From contig NZ_LR738849.1 in assembly GCF_902702915.1 (NCBI RefSeq), forward strand, positions 1,488,001 through 1,552,000: DNA of 64,000 bases, written 5' to 3'. Both the position numbers and the translations under genes were made by a program. The notes beneath the pieces are model-generated. The model was not told where the DNA came from, ran no database searches, and was given only the letters and a program-made list of their open reading frames with translations. Source of the DNA: Desulfovibrio sp. 86. GTDB lineage: Bacteria > Desulfobacterota > Desulfovibrionia > Desulfovibrionales > Desulfovibrionaceae. This document shows, piece by piece, positions 33,764-42,893 of this stretch. Position 1 is the stretch's first letter; each line of letters opens with the position of its first letter.

Positions 33764-33844
33764 CTTTGATAAATAGGTGGTTAAGCCAGAACTGAAAATA
33801 AGGAAACGGCGACGAGAACAAAGAAAAGGAAGAAAAGCAGGGCT

Positions 33845-34290
33845 TGCCCTTTGAAATGCGGTTGTTGCGCCCTGCGGGCACGGCGACCTTTCTTTTCTGT
33901 TGTTTGGGCCGCCTGCGCGGCGGGCGGCGTGGCGAGGGTATGCGCGGCAGGCGCTCTAAAGAAAGCAAAGCAGGGCTTGGCCTTTGAGCGGCGGCTTCTG
34001 CGCCCTGCGGGCACGGGGGCTTTCCTTTTCTGTTGCTTGGGCCGCCTGCGCGGCGGGCGGCAGATGGGGGCCTGTTAGGGGCTGCCGTATACTGCCGCCC
34101 CTCCGAGGCCCCCTCTGCACTCCCCCCGGACGACCCCGCTGGGCTTGTCGTATCTCTCCACTCCCACGGGGCAGTCTTCAAGGGCCTTCCATATCCCATC
34201 ATTCTGCGAGGGCTGCGCGGCTTTCGCTTCGGGAGCTTCCTCGCTTCGCTCGGCGATCTCCCTGCGCGCCGCGCAATGCCAGCGTACGTT
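33845..34290 (+). repeat. Repeat family D, copy 1 (GC-rich tandem array)
   Basis: Two tandem units of about 133 bp share CCCTGCGGGCAC (33870 and 34003) and the palindromic CCGCCTGCGCGGCGGGCGG. They run into a longer shared segment with CCGGACGACCCCGCTGGG and GGCGATCTCCCTGCGCGCCG. The same blocks occur at 41.2-41.6 kb (same strand) and inverted at 41.9-42.9 and 50.8-51.2 kb. All frames are open because of base composition, and no protein family is recognisable. Confidence 0.85.
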
Positions 34291-34456
34291 TTGGCGTTGA
34301 GTGTCAGTTTTGGGGAATCTGAGCGCTAAGACTCGTCTGGCGACCTGTGAAGAAACCTACTCCCACCGTAATTCCAATGTTTTCAAAGGCGGCGGATGTA
34401 ACTGCATAAGCAATTTGATTGGGATACTGTTGTTTCTCAGGCGAAGTGCAGGCCAT

Positions 34457-34879: not shown

Positions 34880-35599
34880 ATGAAGAAAAAATCCTTGCGC
34901 ATCGGAATCATCGGTGATTTTGATGCGGCAAAAAAATCACATATCGCGACTGTAGAAGCGCTCAGGCATTGCGGAAGCACTTTGCACCTGCACACTGAAA
35001 TTATGTGGATAAGCACGCAAACCCTTGAGGACGATGCTGAAAAACACCTGTCGAATTGTGACGGCGTGTTCTGTGCTCCCGGCAGCCCCTATGCCAGTCT
35101 TGCCGGGGCGTTACGCGGCATCCGTTTCGCACGGGAAGCGAACAAGCCGTTCTTGGGTACCTGTGGCGGGTTTCAACATGCGCTCCTTGAATTTGCCGTG
35201 AATGCGCTCGGCATGGCGGAGGCCGCCCATGAGGAATACTCGCCGGATGCCGTATTCCCTGTGGTATCCCGCCTGTCTTGCACTCTGCGCGAGCAGGAGA
35301 ATACCATCTTTTTGCTGCCTTCATGCGTCCGGCGGATCTACGGTAAAGAAGCAACTGTAGAGCGCTACAATTGCGGCTTTGGCCTCAACCCAGCGTATCA
35401 GGCGCGTTTTACGGAATGCGGCTTCAATGTCGTGGGCATGGACGCCCAGGGGGAAGCCAGAATTATGGAAATGCCGAGTCGCGCCTTCTTTGTGGGCACC
35501 CTGTTTCAGCCCCAGCTCAGCTCCACACCGGAGAATCCCCATCCATTGCTGCTGGCGTTCATCAAAACGGCAGCTGGCGAGGACGGGGAGCGCGCCTGA
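34880..35599 (+). CDS. Stand-alone CTP-synthase-like glutamine amidotransferase domain
   Basis: A 239-residue class I glutamine amidotransferase domain resembling the C-terminal half of CTP synthase, without the synthetase half. The nucleophile is the Cys in LGTCGGFQHALLEF (about residue 95). It is preceded by an oxyanion region APGSPYASLAGALRGIRFARE as in PyrG relatives. A His-rich segment near the end (ENPHPLLLAF) may supply the catalytic His. This matches a family described as CTP synthase C-terminal region-related proteins; the acceptor substrate is unknown. The ribosome site is weak (GAGCTC). It sits alone in a repeat-rich block. Confidence 0.78.
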   Translation: MKKKSLRIGIIGDFDAAKKSHIATVEALRHCGSTLHLHTEIMWISTQTLEDDAEKHLSNCDGVFCAPGSPYASLAGALRGIRFAREANKPFLGTCGGFQHALLEFAVNALGMAEAAHEEYSPDAVFPVVSRLSCTLREQENTIFLLPSCVRRIYGKEATVERYNCGFGLNPAYQARFTECGFNVVGMDAQGEARIMEMPSRAFFVGTLFQPQLSSTPENPHPLLLAFIKTAAGEDGERA

Positions 35600-38088: not shown

Positions 38089-38658
38089 ATGGTGAAACCT
38101 TTTTATCAGGGCAAGTTGGACACATTTTGCGCGATTTACGCCGTACTGAACGCCCTGCGCCTTACCCACAGCATCCGGGTGCTCAGGGCGCGCAACATTC
38201 TCAATGAAACCCTGATGGCTTTGGCGACCTCGCCGGAAGTGTTCAGAGCCGTGCTTGAGCAGGAGACCGACTACTGCACTCTTGTGGACGGCATGCTGCG
38301 CGCGCAGAGCCGCGTGTTTCCCCTGGACGTGCGCCAGCCCTTTGGCACGGATCAGGACCCATCCGCCGAACAGGTGTGGGACTGTTGTGATCAGTGGCTT
38401 AATGGCGGCAGCAACCGCGCCCTTGTTTTTCGTTTTTTGCGCCACATCACGCCTGACAGCCCGGCCGTGAACCGCCACTGGACAACGGCCGACAGCCTGA
38501 AGGATGACGTGCTGCATCTTTTTGACTGCAGCCATGAGGCAGAGGCCATCCTCAATGTGCGCAAGGGCAGCTTTGTGACCCGCCCGCAGGAAATCGAGCA
38601 GGACAAACTGCTGTACATCCAGCCTGAGACCATCCGCCTGATACGCCTGCCGGTATAG
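38089..38658 (+). CDS. Putative papain-like (C39-type) cysteine peptidase fold protein
   Basis: A 189-residue cytoplasmic protein. Its N-terminus, FYQGKLDTFCAIYAVLNALRLT, has the Gln...Cys arrangement of papain-like and C39 peptidases (oxyanion Gln7, nucleophile Cys14 in DTFCAIYA). A His later in VNRHWTTADS could complete the site. No exact family is recalled. GGGAGGG precedes the ATG at 38089. A family B-like repeat follows. Confidence 0.6.
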   Translation: MVKPFYQGKLDTFCAIYAVLNALRLTHSIRVLRARNILNETLMALATSPEVFRAVLEQETDYCTLVDGMLRAQSRVFPLDVRQPFGTDQDPSAEQVWDCCDQWLNGGSNRALVFRFLRHITPDSPAVNRHWTTADSLKDDVLHLFDCSHEAEAILNVRKGSFVTRPQEIEQDKLLYIQPETIRLIRLPV

Positions 38659-38913: not shown

Positions 38914-39504
38914 ATGACGCCTGTACTCTGGCTGCTGGGCCTTTCCGGCAGCGGCAAAACCGCACTTGGTTCTCTTCTGCGCCTGTATCTGGAAGGGCAG
39001 GGCATTGAAACGGCCTTTATTGACGAAGGCAAATTTTGCCCGCAGGCCGATGTCGCCCCTGAAGGCCGCATTGCCGCAACCAACGTCTTGCGCGATCATG
39101 CTTTGCAGAAGCACGCCCAGGGCCGCCTGTGCATTGTGGCGGCCACCACCCCCTATGACAGCATGCGCCAGAAAAACCGTGACCTCTTGCCCCTGTACCG
39201 TGAAGTGTGGGTGCGCTGCTCACTGCAAACGCTGGTAGAGCGCGACACCAGGGGCTTGTACGCCATGGCCGCGCACGCGCACGTCCCCGGACTGTGCGGC
39301 CTGACCGACAAATTTGATGAGCCCCGTCGCGCCGATCATATCATTGATACTGACCGCCACAGTCTGGCCGAAAGTTATTTGCAGTTGCGCGACCTTGCCC
39401 TGAACGCTCTGGATACAGCGCGCCACTGGCAGCGCATGCAGCACGCGCTGCTGCCGGAACGTCCGCTGCCTGCGGCCCGCATGCAGCCCGCCATAGCCCT
39501 TTAG
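38914..39504 (+). CDS. Adenylylsulfate-kinase-like P-loop kinase
   Basis: A 196-residue protein of the CysC fold, with P-loop GLSGSGKT (9-16) and a core VLRDHALQKHAQGRLCIVAATTPYDSMRQKNRDLL like APS kinase. It deviates at key sites: the substrate motif DGDN is replaced by DEGK (IDEGKF). The usual GISAPYEEP loop reads GLTDKFDEP. True APS phosphorylation is therefore doubtful; a different phospho-acceptor is possible. The gene is flanked by B repeats and precedes dgt on the opposite strand. Confidence 0.75.
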   Translation: MTPVLWLLGLSGSGKTALGSLLRLYLEGQGIETAFIDEGKFCPQADVAPEGRIAATNVLRDHALQKHAQGRLCIVAATTPYDSMRQKNRDLLPLYREVWVRCSLQTLVERDTRGLYAMAAHAHVPGLCGLTDKFDEPRRADHIIDTDRHSLAESYLQLRDLALNALDTARHWQRMQHALLPERPLPAARMQPAIAL

Positions 39505-39663
39505 AGCATGTTACTTTTGAAAAAGGCCACATGCCCTGAAGCTGCGCGAGTGTGCGGCGCATCGCAGTGTGGCGTGACTTCTGCCGAAAAATCGCATTTT
39601 TCGGCAGAATGACAACTTGAAATGTGAAGCATTGCAAAGGTCATCTGAGCCAGAGCAATGTTA
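39502..39663. repeat. Repeat family B copy
   Basis: TAGAGCATGTTACTTTTGAA opens the element and overlaps the stop of the kinase gene. It continues with GCTGCGCGAGTGTGCGGC, TCTGCCGAAAAATCG/CGATTTTTCGGCAGA-type hairpin and a TTGAAATGTGAAGCATTGCAA tail, in the same order as the copy at 16269-16422. Confidence 0.75.
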
Positions 39664-39782: not shown

Positions 39783-41126
39783 TTATTGCGCCGCAGTGCC
39801 TGAGAACTGCTGCGAAATGAAGGTCGCGTAATCGTCGGTCATGCCAGACACAAAATCCAGCACGCGCAGATAGGCCGTATACAGGCATTCGCCCTCAGAA
39901 GGAGCATTGGAGCCCATGAGAGTAAGCGCGCGTTTTTCCTGATAGGACATGGTATTGTTTTTACTGAAATTGAAGCAGGCCGGAATAAAAATGTCCAGCA
40001 GCCGCTTGTACAGAGTGTACGTTCCTATTTCCAGCGCGGTTTTCTGCGGATTGTTCATAATCTTGCTGTTAAAGACCTCTTTTGCCGCGGCCATAAAATT
40101 TGCCACATCCGGCTTGGCGTGCTTGAGCAGATCGCCCTCAAGCGTGCCGGCCATCATGTCTTCATAACACTCCATAAATGTCTGCACCACGGAAGGGATG
40201 ATGCACGCCATGGCCCTGGTGCGCAGCATGCCGGAGCGCCGCCGGTCGGAGTCCATAGCGCCCAGGCGGGCCGTATCCATATCGTTGTCGTCAAGCAGCG
40301 GCTCCACGGCGTTCTTGATGTCCTGATAGCCAATGATGCGCAGTTCGCGCGCGTCCTCCATATCTATGATGCGGTAGCAGATGTCGTCCGCCGCCTCCAG
40401 CAGGTAGGAAAGCGGATGCCGTCGCGCGCGGCCGTCACGCATCAGACCCAGAGTTGTGAAGATTTCCGTAAAAATGCCCTGCTCTGCGGTGTAAAAATTA
40501 AACTTGCCGCTGGATTGCCCCAATGCCTCATGGGCGGATCGGGGATACTTCACAAGGCTGCCCAGCACGGGAAAGGTCAGGCGAAAGCCCCCGGCGTCCT
40601 TGTTGTTCTCAAGCGTATTGACCACCCGAAATCCCTGGGCGTTGCCGTCAAAGGCCTCAAAGTCCGCCCGTTCCGCTGGCCGCAGTTCCTTGAAATAGTG
40701 CTCGGTATGGCCCGTATCCTTGAACCAGTCGCGTATGGCTTCTTCACCGGCATGGCCAAAGGGCGGATTGCCGATATCGTGCGCAAGGCAGGCCGCCTGT
40801 ATGATCTGGCCGAGATGCTCGGGGCTGAAACCGTCCGGCAGGTGCCCCCGGTCGGCCAGGGTCTGCCCCACCTGAAGGCCCAGCGATCGCCCGACGCTGC
40901 TTACCTCAAGTGAATGGGTAAGACGGTTGTGGATATGGTCGTTGCGCACCAGCGGATGCACCTGGGTTTTCTTGGCCAGCCTGCGAAACGAGCTGGAAAA
41001 GATGATGCGGTCATAATCCTGCACAAAGGGATTGCGCACCACATCGAGGTCGGCAAGCATCTTGCTCTGGCGCGTTATGCGGTACGGGGCCAGCAGACGG
41101 CCCCATTGTTCTTTATGGTCGCTCAT
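39783..41126 (-). CDS. dgt: Deoxyguanosinetriphosphate triphosphohydrolase (dGTPase)
   Basis: Hydrolyses dGTP (and probably other dNTPs) to the nucleoside and triphosphate. The 447-residue HD-domain protein has RDRIIFSSSFRRLAKKTQV-like sequence, NRLTHSLEVSSVGR, ACLAHDIGNPPFGHAGE (HD metal motif) and the dGTPase C-terminal region with YTLYKRLLDIF. ATG 41126 is preceded by AAGGAG on the minus strand; 15 extra upstream codons are unlikely. It is the longer Dgt type, not the short YedF type. Confidence 0.92.
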   Translation of the reverse strand: MSDHKEQWGRLLAPYRITRQSKMLADLDVVRNPFVQDYDRIIFSSSFRRLAKKTQVHPLVRNDHIHNRLTHSLEVSSVGRSLGLQVGQTLADRGHLPDGFSPEHLGQIIQAACLAHDIGNPPFGHAGEEAIRDWFKDTGHTEHYFKELRPAERADFEAFDGNAQGFRVVNTLENNKDAGGFRLTFPVLGSLVKYPRSAHEALGQSSGKFNFYTAEQGIFTEIFTTLGLMRDGRARRHPLSYLLEAADDICYRIIDMEDARELRIIGYQDIKNAVEPLLDDNDMDTARLGAMDSDRRRSGMLRTRAMACIIPSVVQTFMECYEDMMAGTLEGDLLKHAKPDVANFMAAAKEVFNSKIMNNPQKTALEIGTYTLYKRLLDIFIPACFNFSKNNTMSYQEKRALTLMGSNAPSEGECLYTAYLRVLDFVSGMTDDYATFISQQFSGTAAQ

Positions 41127-41224
41127 AAGTTCTCCTTCAAAGGCTTTATGACAACTGTCTTCGAGCTGCAAGCCTATGAGCTTTTGAGGCGCGGAGCTTA
41201 CACGGCTGAGGATTCAGAAAAAAT

Positions 41225-41617
41225 TAAGCAGGGTTTGCCCTTTGATAGGAGGGTATTGCGCCCTGCGGGCACGGGGGCTTTTCTTTAATTTCGTTTTGGC
41301 CGCCTGCGCGGTGGCGGCGTGGCGGGGGTATGCGCGGCGGACGCTTCAAGAGAATAAAGCTGGGCCTGTCCTCTGAGAGGTGGGTGTTGTGCCCTGCGGG
41401 CACGGGGGCTTTCTTTTTCCTTTTGTTTTGGCCGCCTGCGCGGCGGGCGGCGTGGTGCGGTATGGACGCGGACGCTTTGAAGAAAATAGAGCTTGTCCTT
41501 TGAAAGACAGTTTGTGTGCCCTGCGGGCACGGCGACCTTTCTTTTCCGTTGTTTGGGCCGCCTGCGCGGCGTGCGGCAAGGCGGGGCCGGTTATGGGGCT
41601 GCGCCCCCTTCTCGGCC
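41225..41617 (+). repeat. Repeat family D, copy 2 (three tandem units)
   Basis: Three units with CCCTGCGGGCAC at 41261, 41392 and 41519 (spacing 131 and 127), each followed by a pyrimidine-rich stretch and GGCCGCCTGCGCGG. They are the same strand sense as the array at 33.8-34.3 kb. No coding role. Confidence 0.85.
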
Positions 41618-41757
41618 CCCCTTGCATCCCCCCCGAAGCACCCCGCTGTCCTACCCTGACCAACAATTTCCCTTTTTCGGGGGCGGCTACGCACGAACCT
41701 CGCCGACGTGTCGGCTTCGGTTCTTTATGACGCCGCCCCCGGCAGCAATACGCTCCC
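41618..41757 (+). repeat. Repeat family E, copy 2 (inverted to copy 1)
   Basis: The reverse complement matches 34457-34568 through the palindromic core GCCGACACGTCGGC and the flanking CGGCGTCATAAAGA block. Confidence 0.75.
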
Positions 41758-41859
41758 TGCCTGAGAAGCGGCACAGGCTTAAGGCATGTTACCGTGATAA
41801 AAACGCTGAATTCCTTTGCCAGATTTTTTGGTAAATCCAGAAGCGGACCAAACAGCAGA

Positions 41860-42893
41860 AAAAGAAAGGCCGCCGTGCCCGCAGGGCGCAATACCCTCCT
41901 ATCGAAGGACAAGCTCTGCTTTATTTTTTTGAAGCCCCATCTACGCGAGTACCGCCGCCATTACGTGCCTTTTCCCAACAGTGATATGCAGTTTCTGAGG
42001 CTCCCCCACAGCCAAAGAGACGCCTTCCCGACGCTCACTCAGGGCGAGATCACACGCTGGCATTGCGCGGCGCGCAGGGAGATCGCCGAGCGGAGCGAGG
42101 AAGCTCCCGGAGCAGAAGCCGCGCAGCCCTCGCAGAATGGTGGGATATGGAAGGCCCTTGAAGGCTGACCCGTGGGAGTGTGGGATATACGACAAACCCA
42201 GCGGGGTCGTCCGGGGGGAGTGCAGAGGGGGCCTCGGAGGGGCGGCAGCCCCTAACAGGCCCCCATCTGCCGCCCGCCGCGCAGGCGGCCCAAACAGCAG
42301 AAAAAGTAAGGCCCCCGTGCCCGCTGGGCACATAAGCCATCTCTCGAAGGACAAGCTCTGCTTTATTCTTTTTGAAGCCCAGCTACGCAAGTACCGCCGC
42401 CATTACGTGCCTTTTCCCAATAGTGATATGCGGTTTCTGGGGCTCCCCCACAGCCAAAGAGACGCCTTCCCGAAGCTCACTCAGGGCGAGATCGCACGCT
42501 GGCATTGCGTGGCGCACAGGGAGATCGCCGAGCGGAGCGAGGAAGCTCCCGGAGCAAAAGCCGCGCAGCCCTCGCAGAATGGTGGGATATGGAAGGCCCT
42601 TGAAGGCTGACCCGTGGGAGTGGAGAGATGCGACAAGCCCAGCGGGGTCGTCCGGGGGGAGTGCAGAGGGGGCCTCGGAGGGGCGGCAGCCCCTAACAGG
42701 CCCCCATCTGCCGCCCGCCGCGCAGGCGGCCCAAACGAAATAAAAGACAGGCCGCCATGCCCGCAGGGCACAGAACCCACCTCTCAAAGGACAGGCCCTG
42801 CTTTGCTTTCTTCAGAGCGCCCACCGCGCATACTCACGCCACGTCGCACGCCGCGCATACTCACGCCACGCCGCCCGCCCCGCAGGCGGCATC
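41860..42893 (-). repeat. Repeat family D, copy 3: inverted array with two 442 bp tandem units
   Basis: The sequence ACCGCCGCCATTACGTGCC recurs at 41951 and 42393, giving a 442 bp period, and the units stay very similar for over 400 bases. A third, truncated unit ends near 42893 with short ACGCCGCGCATACTCACGCC repeats. Each unit carries the 130 bp sub-block of copies 1 and 2 in reverse orientation. The array directly abuts the 3' end of the glycan operon. Confidence 0.88.

Follow-up and report, generated by a model that had tools for sequence, protein, structure and literature searches.

A CysC-like P-loop protein of an orphan Desulfovibrio subfamily with an altered APS site

The window analyzed here is a stretch of 64,000 nucleotides from Desulfovibrio sp. 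86 (contig NZ_LR738849.1, positions 1,488,001 to 1,552,000). At positions 38914..39504 of the forward strand it carries an uninterrupted frame of 196 aa which, according to its translation and a Pfam match, encodes a CysC/APS-kinase-like P-loop protein of an orphan Desulfovibrio subfamily. The gene is real; GAGGTGAGC lies directly 5' of its ATG, and the start site is common to most orthologues. The protein matched Pfam APS_kinase (PF01583) with 71.8 bits (E 8.3e-20), above the cut-off of 21.1. The NCBIfam apsK equivalog-domain model gave only 79.3 bits, short of its cut-off of 138.7, and the curated functional threshold for an APS kinase was therefore missed. The nearest solved relative by sequence was the APS kinase 7YQ0 from Archaeoglobus fulgidus (77.6 bits). 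An AlphaFold2 model built from 29 sequences had a mean pLDDT of 87.0, and the top-ranked solved structures were again APS kinases, the best being 5CB6 (Z 23.2, rmsd 2.0 Å over 169 residues). The protein had no match in PHROGs and PADLOC, and a defence or phage role was set aside on that ground.

A convergent gene at 39783..41171 (- strand, longest frame) encodes a dGTPase (NCBIfam NF002205, 518.5 bits). Between the two genes lies a perfect hairpin with 13-bp arms, TTCTGCCGAAAAA and TTTTTCGGCAGAA, at 39579..39609; this is the one such site in the window, with 0 expected in shuffles, and it is possibly a bidirectional terminator. To compare gene surroundings, 29 orthologue stretches were gene-called, and the kinase-like gene appeared in the rows of 23 (L084 and L087-L091 were left out). 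The dGTPase gene adjoined it in 13 of these 23 loci. A polysaccharide deacetylase was encoded within six genes in 12 loci, and a carboxynorspermidine-synthase-like or decarboxylase-family protein in 11. These names are weak: the synthase-like protein of the window scored 406 against a cut-off of 800. Neighbour cluster c9 proved to be a histone-deacetylase-family protein. A link to a polyamine pathway was considered and rejected, the recurrence being taken as conserved position rather than as a pathway. No pathway gene for a sugar or lipid-phosphate acceptor was present among the neighbours scanned, and no sulfation or cysDN genes were recognized in the scanned part.

The gene directly upstream (38092-38655, + strand) encodes 188 aa with papain-like spacing, namely Q..C near the start followed by H and D. 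Such a protein occurred in 62 of the 79 genomes of the genus; at the thresholds used it matched nothing in Pfam, NCBIfam, PHROGs or PADLOC, and its single PDB match had an E value of 0.71. An operon or functional link with this gene was dismissed, as it adjoins the kinase-like gene in only 3 of 23 loci, namely in the window and in the two relatives closest to it.

The residues of the active site were assessed against M. tuberculosis CysC. In the passages of PMC4373884 that concern this enzyme, Asp480 may act as the catalytic base (its mouse counterpart is reported to be essential), Lys562 of the lid stabilizes the transition state, Arg483 and Arg497 are ligands of the phosphosulfate, Phe492 and Phe576 clamp the adenine of APS, and Arg559 stacks on the adenine of ATP. 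Spacing was used to match these residues to the E. coli CysC motifs, with Asp480 as the second Asp of DGDN and Lys562 as the Lys of D-P-K-G-L-Y, where a proline precedes it as Pro561 does in PMC4373884. The site columns were read from an alignment of 106 family sequences, comprising 39 orthologues, 15 members of a set termed group X and 52 others including E. coli CysC. The sequence of the M. tuberculosis enzyme also helped to place the numbering, and Asn500, which does not come from those passages, is counted as a further residue of the site.

The P-loop GLSGSGKT (residues 9-16, 38938..38961, + strand) was intact, as the earlier note had stated, and was invariant in a 25-row orthologue alignment. 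Orthologue L091 reads GLSGTGKT, and the P-loop lysine, Lys15, was still present in 39/39 orthologues. The stretch DEGKFC (residues 37-42, 39022..39039, + strand) replaces DGDNxR, with D37-E38-G39-K40 standing at DGDN without a gap, so that Asp480 corresponds to Gly39 and Arg483 to Cys42. In residues 47-55 (39052..39078, + strand), a loop shorter than that of E. coli CysC, Phe492 is replaced by Val47 and Asn500 by Ala55, while Arg497 is kept as Arg52. The lid starts with RDTRGLY (residues 110-116, 39241..39261, + strand), where Arg559 is kept as Arg110 and Lys562 is replaced by Arg113. Finally, residues 126-137 (GLCGLTDKFDEP, 39289..39324, + strand) carry Leu127 in place of Phe576. Thus the P-loop lysine and the ATP-stacking arginine of an APS kinase are present, one of the two phosphosulfate ligands is kept, and the proposed base, the lid lysine and both halves of the adenine clamp are missing. 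Lys15, Asp37, Arg52 and Arg110 were kept in 39/39 orthologues; the positions of Asp480, Arg483, Phe492, Asn500, Lys562 and Phe576 varied. The ATP half of the site (P-loop and Arg110) is, as judged from these residues, retained in the window protein. APS kinase activity is unlikely, given the alterations on the acceptor side and at the proposed base.

The earlier note had described the CysC core as intact, which was too generous in view of the changes to Cys42, Val47, Ala55, Arg113 and Leu127. It had also pointed to KFDEP as a second altered specificity motif. The tyrosine of the YE-P motif is phenylalanine (Phe134 in the window protein) in 39/39 orthologues but also in 13 of 52 ordinary family members, and this change is therefore uninformative. 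DGDN does read DEGK, and once KFDEP is removed this observation is stronger than first described. As DEG is common to five genomes, a sequencing slip is excluded. The note had named the same substitution in known active APS kinases as what would refute it, and this did not turn up in the sample. Of 66 non-orthologues that have sequence at the motif, 0 carried DEG; 65 of them had Asp480 and one had Asn, and Arg483 was present in 66/66. Apart from E. coli CysC these are uncharacterized genome sequences, so the pattern is one of conservation and not a proof of activity. Arginine at the position of Lys562, a conservative change, was also found in 3 of the 52 other relatives.

Orthologues, defined as matches over at least query residues 1-163, were present in 39 of the 79 Desulfovibrio-genus genomes, the window genome counted, with identities of 51-94%. 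A further 39 genomes, some of them incomplete, had no orthologue, and one more contained a fragment. In a search of 149 family-level genomes, those of the genus among them, the highest score beyond the genus was 77.3 bits, at 37% identity, and a 97-residue piece reached 42% identity. A wider contig scan with two peptide patterns returned 32 loci. Twenty-three of these, at 49-91%, were titled Desulfovibrio, Desulfovibrionaceae or Deltaproteobacteria, one (L128, titled Clostridia MAG) had a match of 67 residues with 53% at a contig end, and the remaining eight were weaker. No full-length member outside the genus was seen in the 149 family-level genomes and the contig scan, and apart from the one short match labelled Clostridia the subfamily was found only in Desulfovibrio.

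A phylogeny with ordinary CysC, which the earlier note had named as a check, placed the orthologues in a single clade of their own, separate from ordinary CysC and from group X (SH-aLRT 100 in a tree of 105 rows; 100/100 in a tree of 43 rows without the key columns). The larger tree left out L183, which is cut at the motif, and has long branches; the tree program warned that the joining of the group-X side to the orthologues is possibly false. On the sequence evidence the window protein is derived from an APS-kinase-like ancestor. Asp480 is kept in 34 and Lys562 in 33 of the 39 orthologues. Within the clade, the replacement of Asp480 by Gly required one change (5 rows), that of Lys562 by Arg one change (6 rows) and that of Arg483 by Cys two changes (13 rows). 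Leucine stands in place of Phe576 in 36 of 39. The other three have phenylalanine, which L091 close by does not; the 105-row tree does not resolve the base of the clade, so this phenylalanine may be ancestral or regained. L084, L088 and L089 keep all named residues (DAD, Arg483, Phe492, Lys562 and Phe576). L036, the sister to the DEG group (fork support 89 in the 105-row tree), carries DED together with Cys42 and Arg113, which indicates that Arg483 and Lys562 were replaced before Asp480 was lost. As read from these sequences, the APS half was dismantled stepwise and not in a single jump, and Asp480 changed to Gly once, in the window lineage.

Selection was estimated from pairwise dN/dS values by simple Nei-Gojobori counts. 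For the kinase-like gene, the window against L032, L033, L034 and L035 gave 0.19, 0.23, 0.26 and 0.25, respectively, so nonsynonymous change is suppressed about 4-5-fold among the nearest relatives. In the same genome pairs the values were 0.03 for metK, 0.04-0.07 for panC, 0.06-0.11 for the papain-like gene and 0.08-0.13 for the dGTPase gene. The kinase-like gene thus lies at about 1.4 to 9 times the values of its neighbours, and its constraint is loosened, though purifying. Position 113 was Arg in 6/6 nearest relatives, encoded by AGG, AGA and CGC codons, and DEG and Cys42 were fixed in 5/5 genomes with a pairwise dS of up to 0.73.

The kinase-like gene was the only PF01583 gene found in the window genome, a single contig of 3.46 Mb. 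Sat was present (286.8 bits), and no PAPS reductase was found above the cut-off. The genome also encodes a PF13469 sulfotransferase-family protein (L167:1692-2861, - strand, 120.8 bits), which is a possible user of PAPS. The sole APS-kinase relative of the genome looks defective, which leaves no evident source of PAPS for this protein if it uses any. PF00685 matches of 41.8-52.8 bits occurred in 14 genomes of the genus, the window genome among them; 6 of the 14 had no APS-kinase match beyond short P-loop pieces, and such a protein is thus no indicator of PAPS supply.

In sulfate reducers APS is a respiratory intermediate, and the earlier note had held that an APS kinase would be notable there. 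This point is weakened by the presence of high-scoring CysC (148-219 bits) in 22 of the 79 genus genomes. High-scoring CysC and an orthologue occurred together in 4 genomes, while 10.9 were expected (P 0.0005), a value that is only indicative because the genomes are related and some are incomplete. The counts of 39, 22 and 4 among 79 were tallied by hand, excluding a 53-residue fragment (G216). The rare co-occurrence could come about because the subfamily takes the place of CysC, or could reflect clade structure alone. Nothing else speaks as strongly for the possibility that early members of the subfamily are still APS kinases.

Compared with CysC of known structure (M. tuberculosis 4BZP, Archaeoglobus 7YQ0/7YQ1, Synechocystis 5CB6), the modelled fold is alike, with Z values of 20-23 and an rmsd of about 2 Å for most. 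The P-loop, Arg559 and Arg497 are shared, whereas Asp480, Arg483, Phe492, Lys562 and Phe576 are replaced and the identity in the structure matches is at most 29%. The APS-kinase-like domain of fungal ATP sulfurylase (1I2D, 1M8P) has the same fold (Z about 21) and, according to the relevant part of PMC3779200, is regulatory and binds PAPS; it is fused to ATP sulfurylase, while the window protein is free-standing with an intact P-loop. The broad fold is also that of gluconate kinase and other small-molecule kinases with a P-loop. Gluconate kinase was the first other family (Z 16.6), below nearly all APS kinase entries among the matches listed, and no protein of this type was among the 35 PDB sequences found for the window protein.

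Group X consists of 14 sequences of the genus that form a separate clade, and of a fifteenth, the cut L183. It keeps Asp480, Arg483, Phe492 and Lys562, while Asn500 is replaced by Leu and Phe576 by Met. Its gene cluster was checked in two genomes. At L178:2819-8761 (- strand) the gene stands in one strand run with genes for a PEP-utiliser/PPDK_N protein, a glutamine amidotransferase, a nucleotidyltransferase and two methyltransferases, and L176:15-3491 (+ strand) has the same order minus the amidotransferase. These clusters resemble the O-methyl phosphoramidate capsule genes of C. jejuni. The cytidine diphosphoramidate kinase is related to CysC but has an acceptor other than APS, and we take Cj1415 to be this kinase in the Cj1415-Cj1418 set. 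The Cj1415-Cj1418 set produces CDP-phosphoramidate 3'-phosphate, as described in the passages of PMC11800397 on this pathway. By analogy, group X is probably of the Cj1415 type and would then show, within the same genus, that the CysC fold is able to take another acceptor. The window protein lies outside the group X clade, and no PEP-utiliser/glutamine kinase and nucleotidyltransferase genes were found among the window proteins scanned around its gene. No open-licence PMC paper on methyl phosphoramidate in Desulfovibrio was found.

Taken from its residues, the window protein probably does a different job from an APS kinase. The reading we put first, tentatively and at somewhat less than an even chance, is that of an ATP-using CysC derivative which no longer makes PAPS and acts on another phosphate acceptor. 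MgATP would still be bound, an APS-kinase-type lid would close over it, and the gamma-phosphate would pass to some other small acceptor, bound by Arg52 and the remodelled 37-55 loop, while Asp37 or Glu38 would stand in for the lost base; PAPS would not be made at a useful rate. This reading draws on the retention of ATP-side residues in 39/39 orthologues while the APS-side positions change, on the roles that PMC4373884 gives to those positions, on the fully supported single clade in which Asp480 and Lys562 were each replaced by one change, on purifying selection with Arg113, DEG and Cys42 held, on group X as a precedent, in the same genus, of a CysC relative that serves a different pathway, and on Sat without a PAPS reductase over the cut-off. 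It is weakened by the called neighbours (polyamine-type, polysaccharide deacetylase and dGTPase), which suggest no acceptor, by the loosened constraint, by the sulfotransferase-family protein as a possible PAPS user, and by the rare co-occurrence with high-scoring CysC, which may mean replacement. Of the earlier note's proposal that the substrate-side changes suggest another acceptor, the improbability of APS activity stood, but a sugar or lipid phosphate was without positive evidence.

Loss of the base would be equally expected of a pseudoenzyme, which binds ATP and perhaps another nucleotide, transfers no phosphate and serves as a sensor or partner subunit. This alternative is less probable, though it deserves weight: the proposed base has become Gly and the transition-state lysine Arg, the constraint is looser than that of the neighbours, and the fungal ATP sulfurylase domain described in the part of PMC3779200 cited above is a precedent. 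However, the P-loop lysine and the ATP-stacking arginine are kept throughout the orthologues, Arg113 stays basic, and no partner gene was recognized alongside. An acceptor-switched enzyme is favoured, although sequence alone cannot choose between the two.

It is improbable that the protein is a tolerant APS kinase in which Glu38 or Asp37 serves as base and Arg113 does the work of Lys562, and which is the PAPS source of the genome. Its position as the only PF01583 gene beside a sulfotransferase-family protein, the rare co-occurrence with high-scoring CysC, the persistence of Asp480 and Lys562 in most orthologues and the occurrence of Arg at 562 in three other relatives fit such an enzyme. Yet five APS-site positions named in the passages of PMC4373884 are altered together, the other relatives keep Asp480 and Arg483 almost without exception, and sulfotransferase-type proteins are uninformative on PAPS supply because PF00685 matches of similar strength also occur in genomes that have no APS-kinase match beyond P-loop pieces. 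Slow decay, with a function fading in the window lineage and a frame open by chance, is quite doubtful, since all five nearest relatives have an open frame, suppression of nonsynonymous change persists among them and the new residues are shared by 5/5 genomes, despite the raised dN/dS and the 39 genomes, some incomplete, without an orthologue.

The acceptor-switched enzyme would thus be a CysC-derived kinase confined to Desulfovibrio and retooled for a new acceptor, and extant relatives, from L084, L088 and L089 to the DEG form, would record the steps by which its APS site was lost; we hold this as a provisional account, not quite an even proposition. Among the matches listed for open-licence PMC papers on APS kinase or pseudokinase and Desulfovibrio, no title or start of an abstract described the subfamily. 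The D. gigas genome paper, in the passage concerned, reports one bifunctional apsK, on a plasmid. It is easy to annotate genes of this kind as adenylyl-sulfate kinase and to read them as a sign of PAPS synthesis in a sulfate reducer, which is a mistake in the window lineage if the site no longer works on APS. The graded orthologue series would serve as a natural experiment on acceptor change or loss in a nucleotide kinase.

Some further features were observed around the gene. A cysteine-synthase-like PLP enzyme (PF00291, 251.7 bits) was encoded within six genes of it in 4 of 23 loci (L079:3545-4540, + strand, and also L069, L073 and L076), in L069 with an Rrf2-type regulator nearby; a sulfur link is possible. 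The window also encodes a free-standing protein related to the C-terminal region of CTP synthase (34880-35599, + strand, NF004836, 286.5 bits), which was absent from the stretches around the kinase-like genes of four relatives. Inverted repeats of 212 nt with 93% identity (34092-34303 and 42478-42689), accompanied by further repeats at 33834-34303 and 41225-42857, flank an 8-kb block with metK, panC, the kinase-like gene and the dGTPase gene. They may have driven a rearrangement that changed the neighbours of the block relative to L066 and L067.
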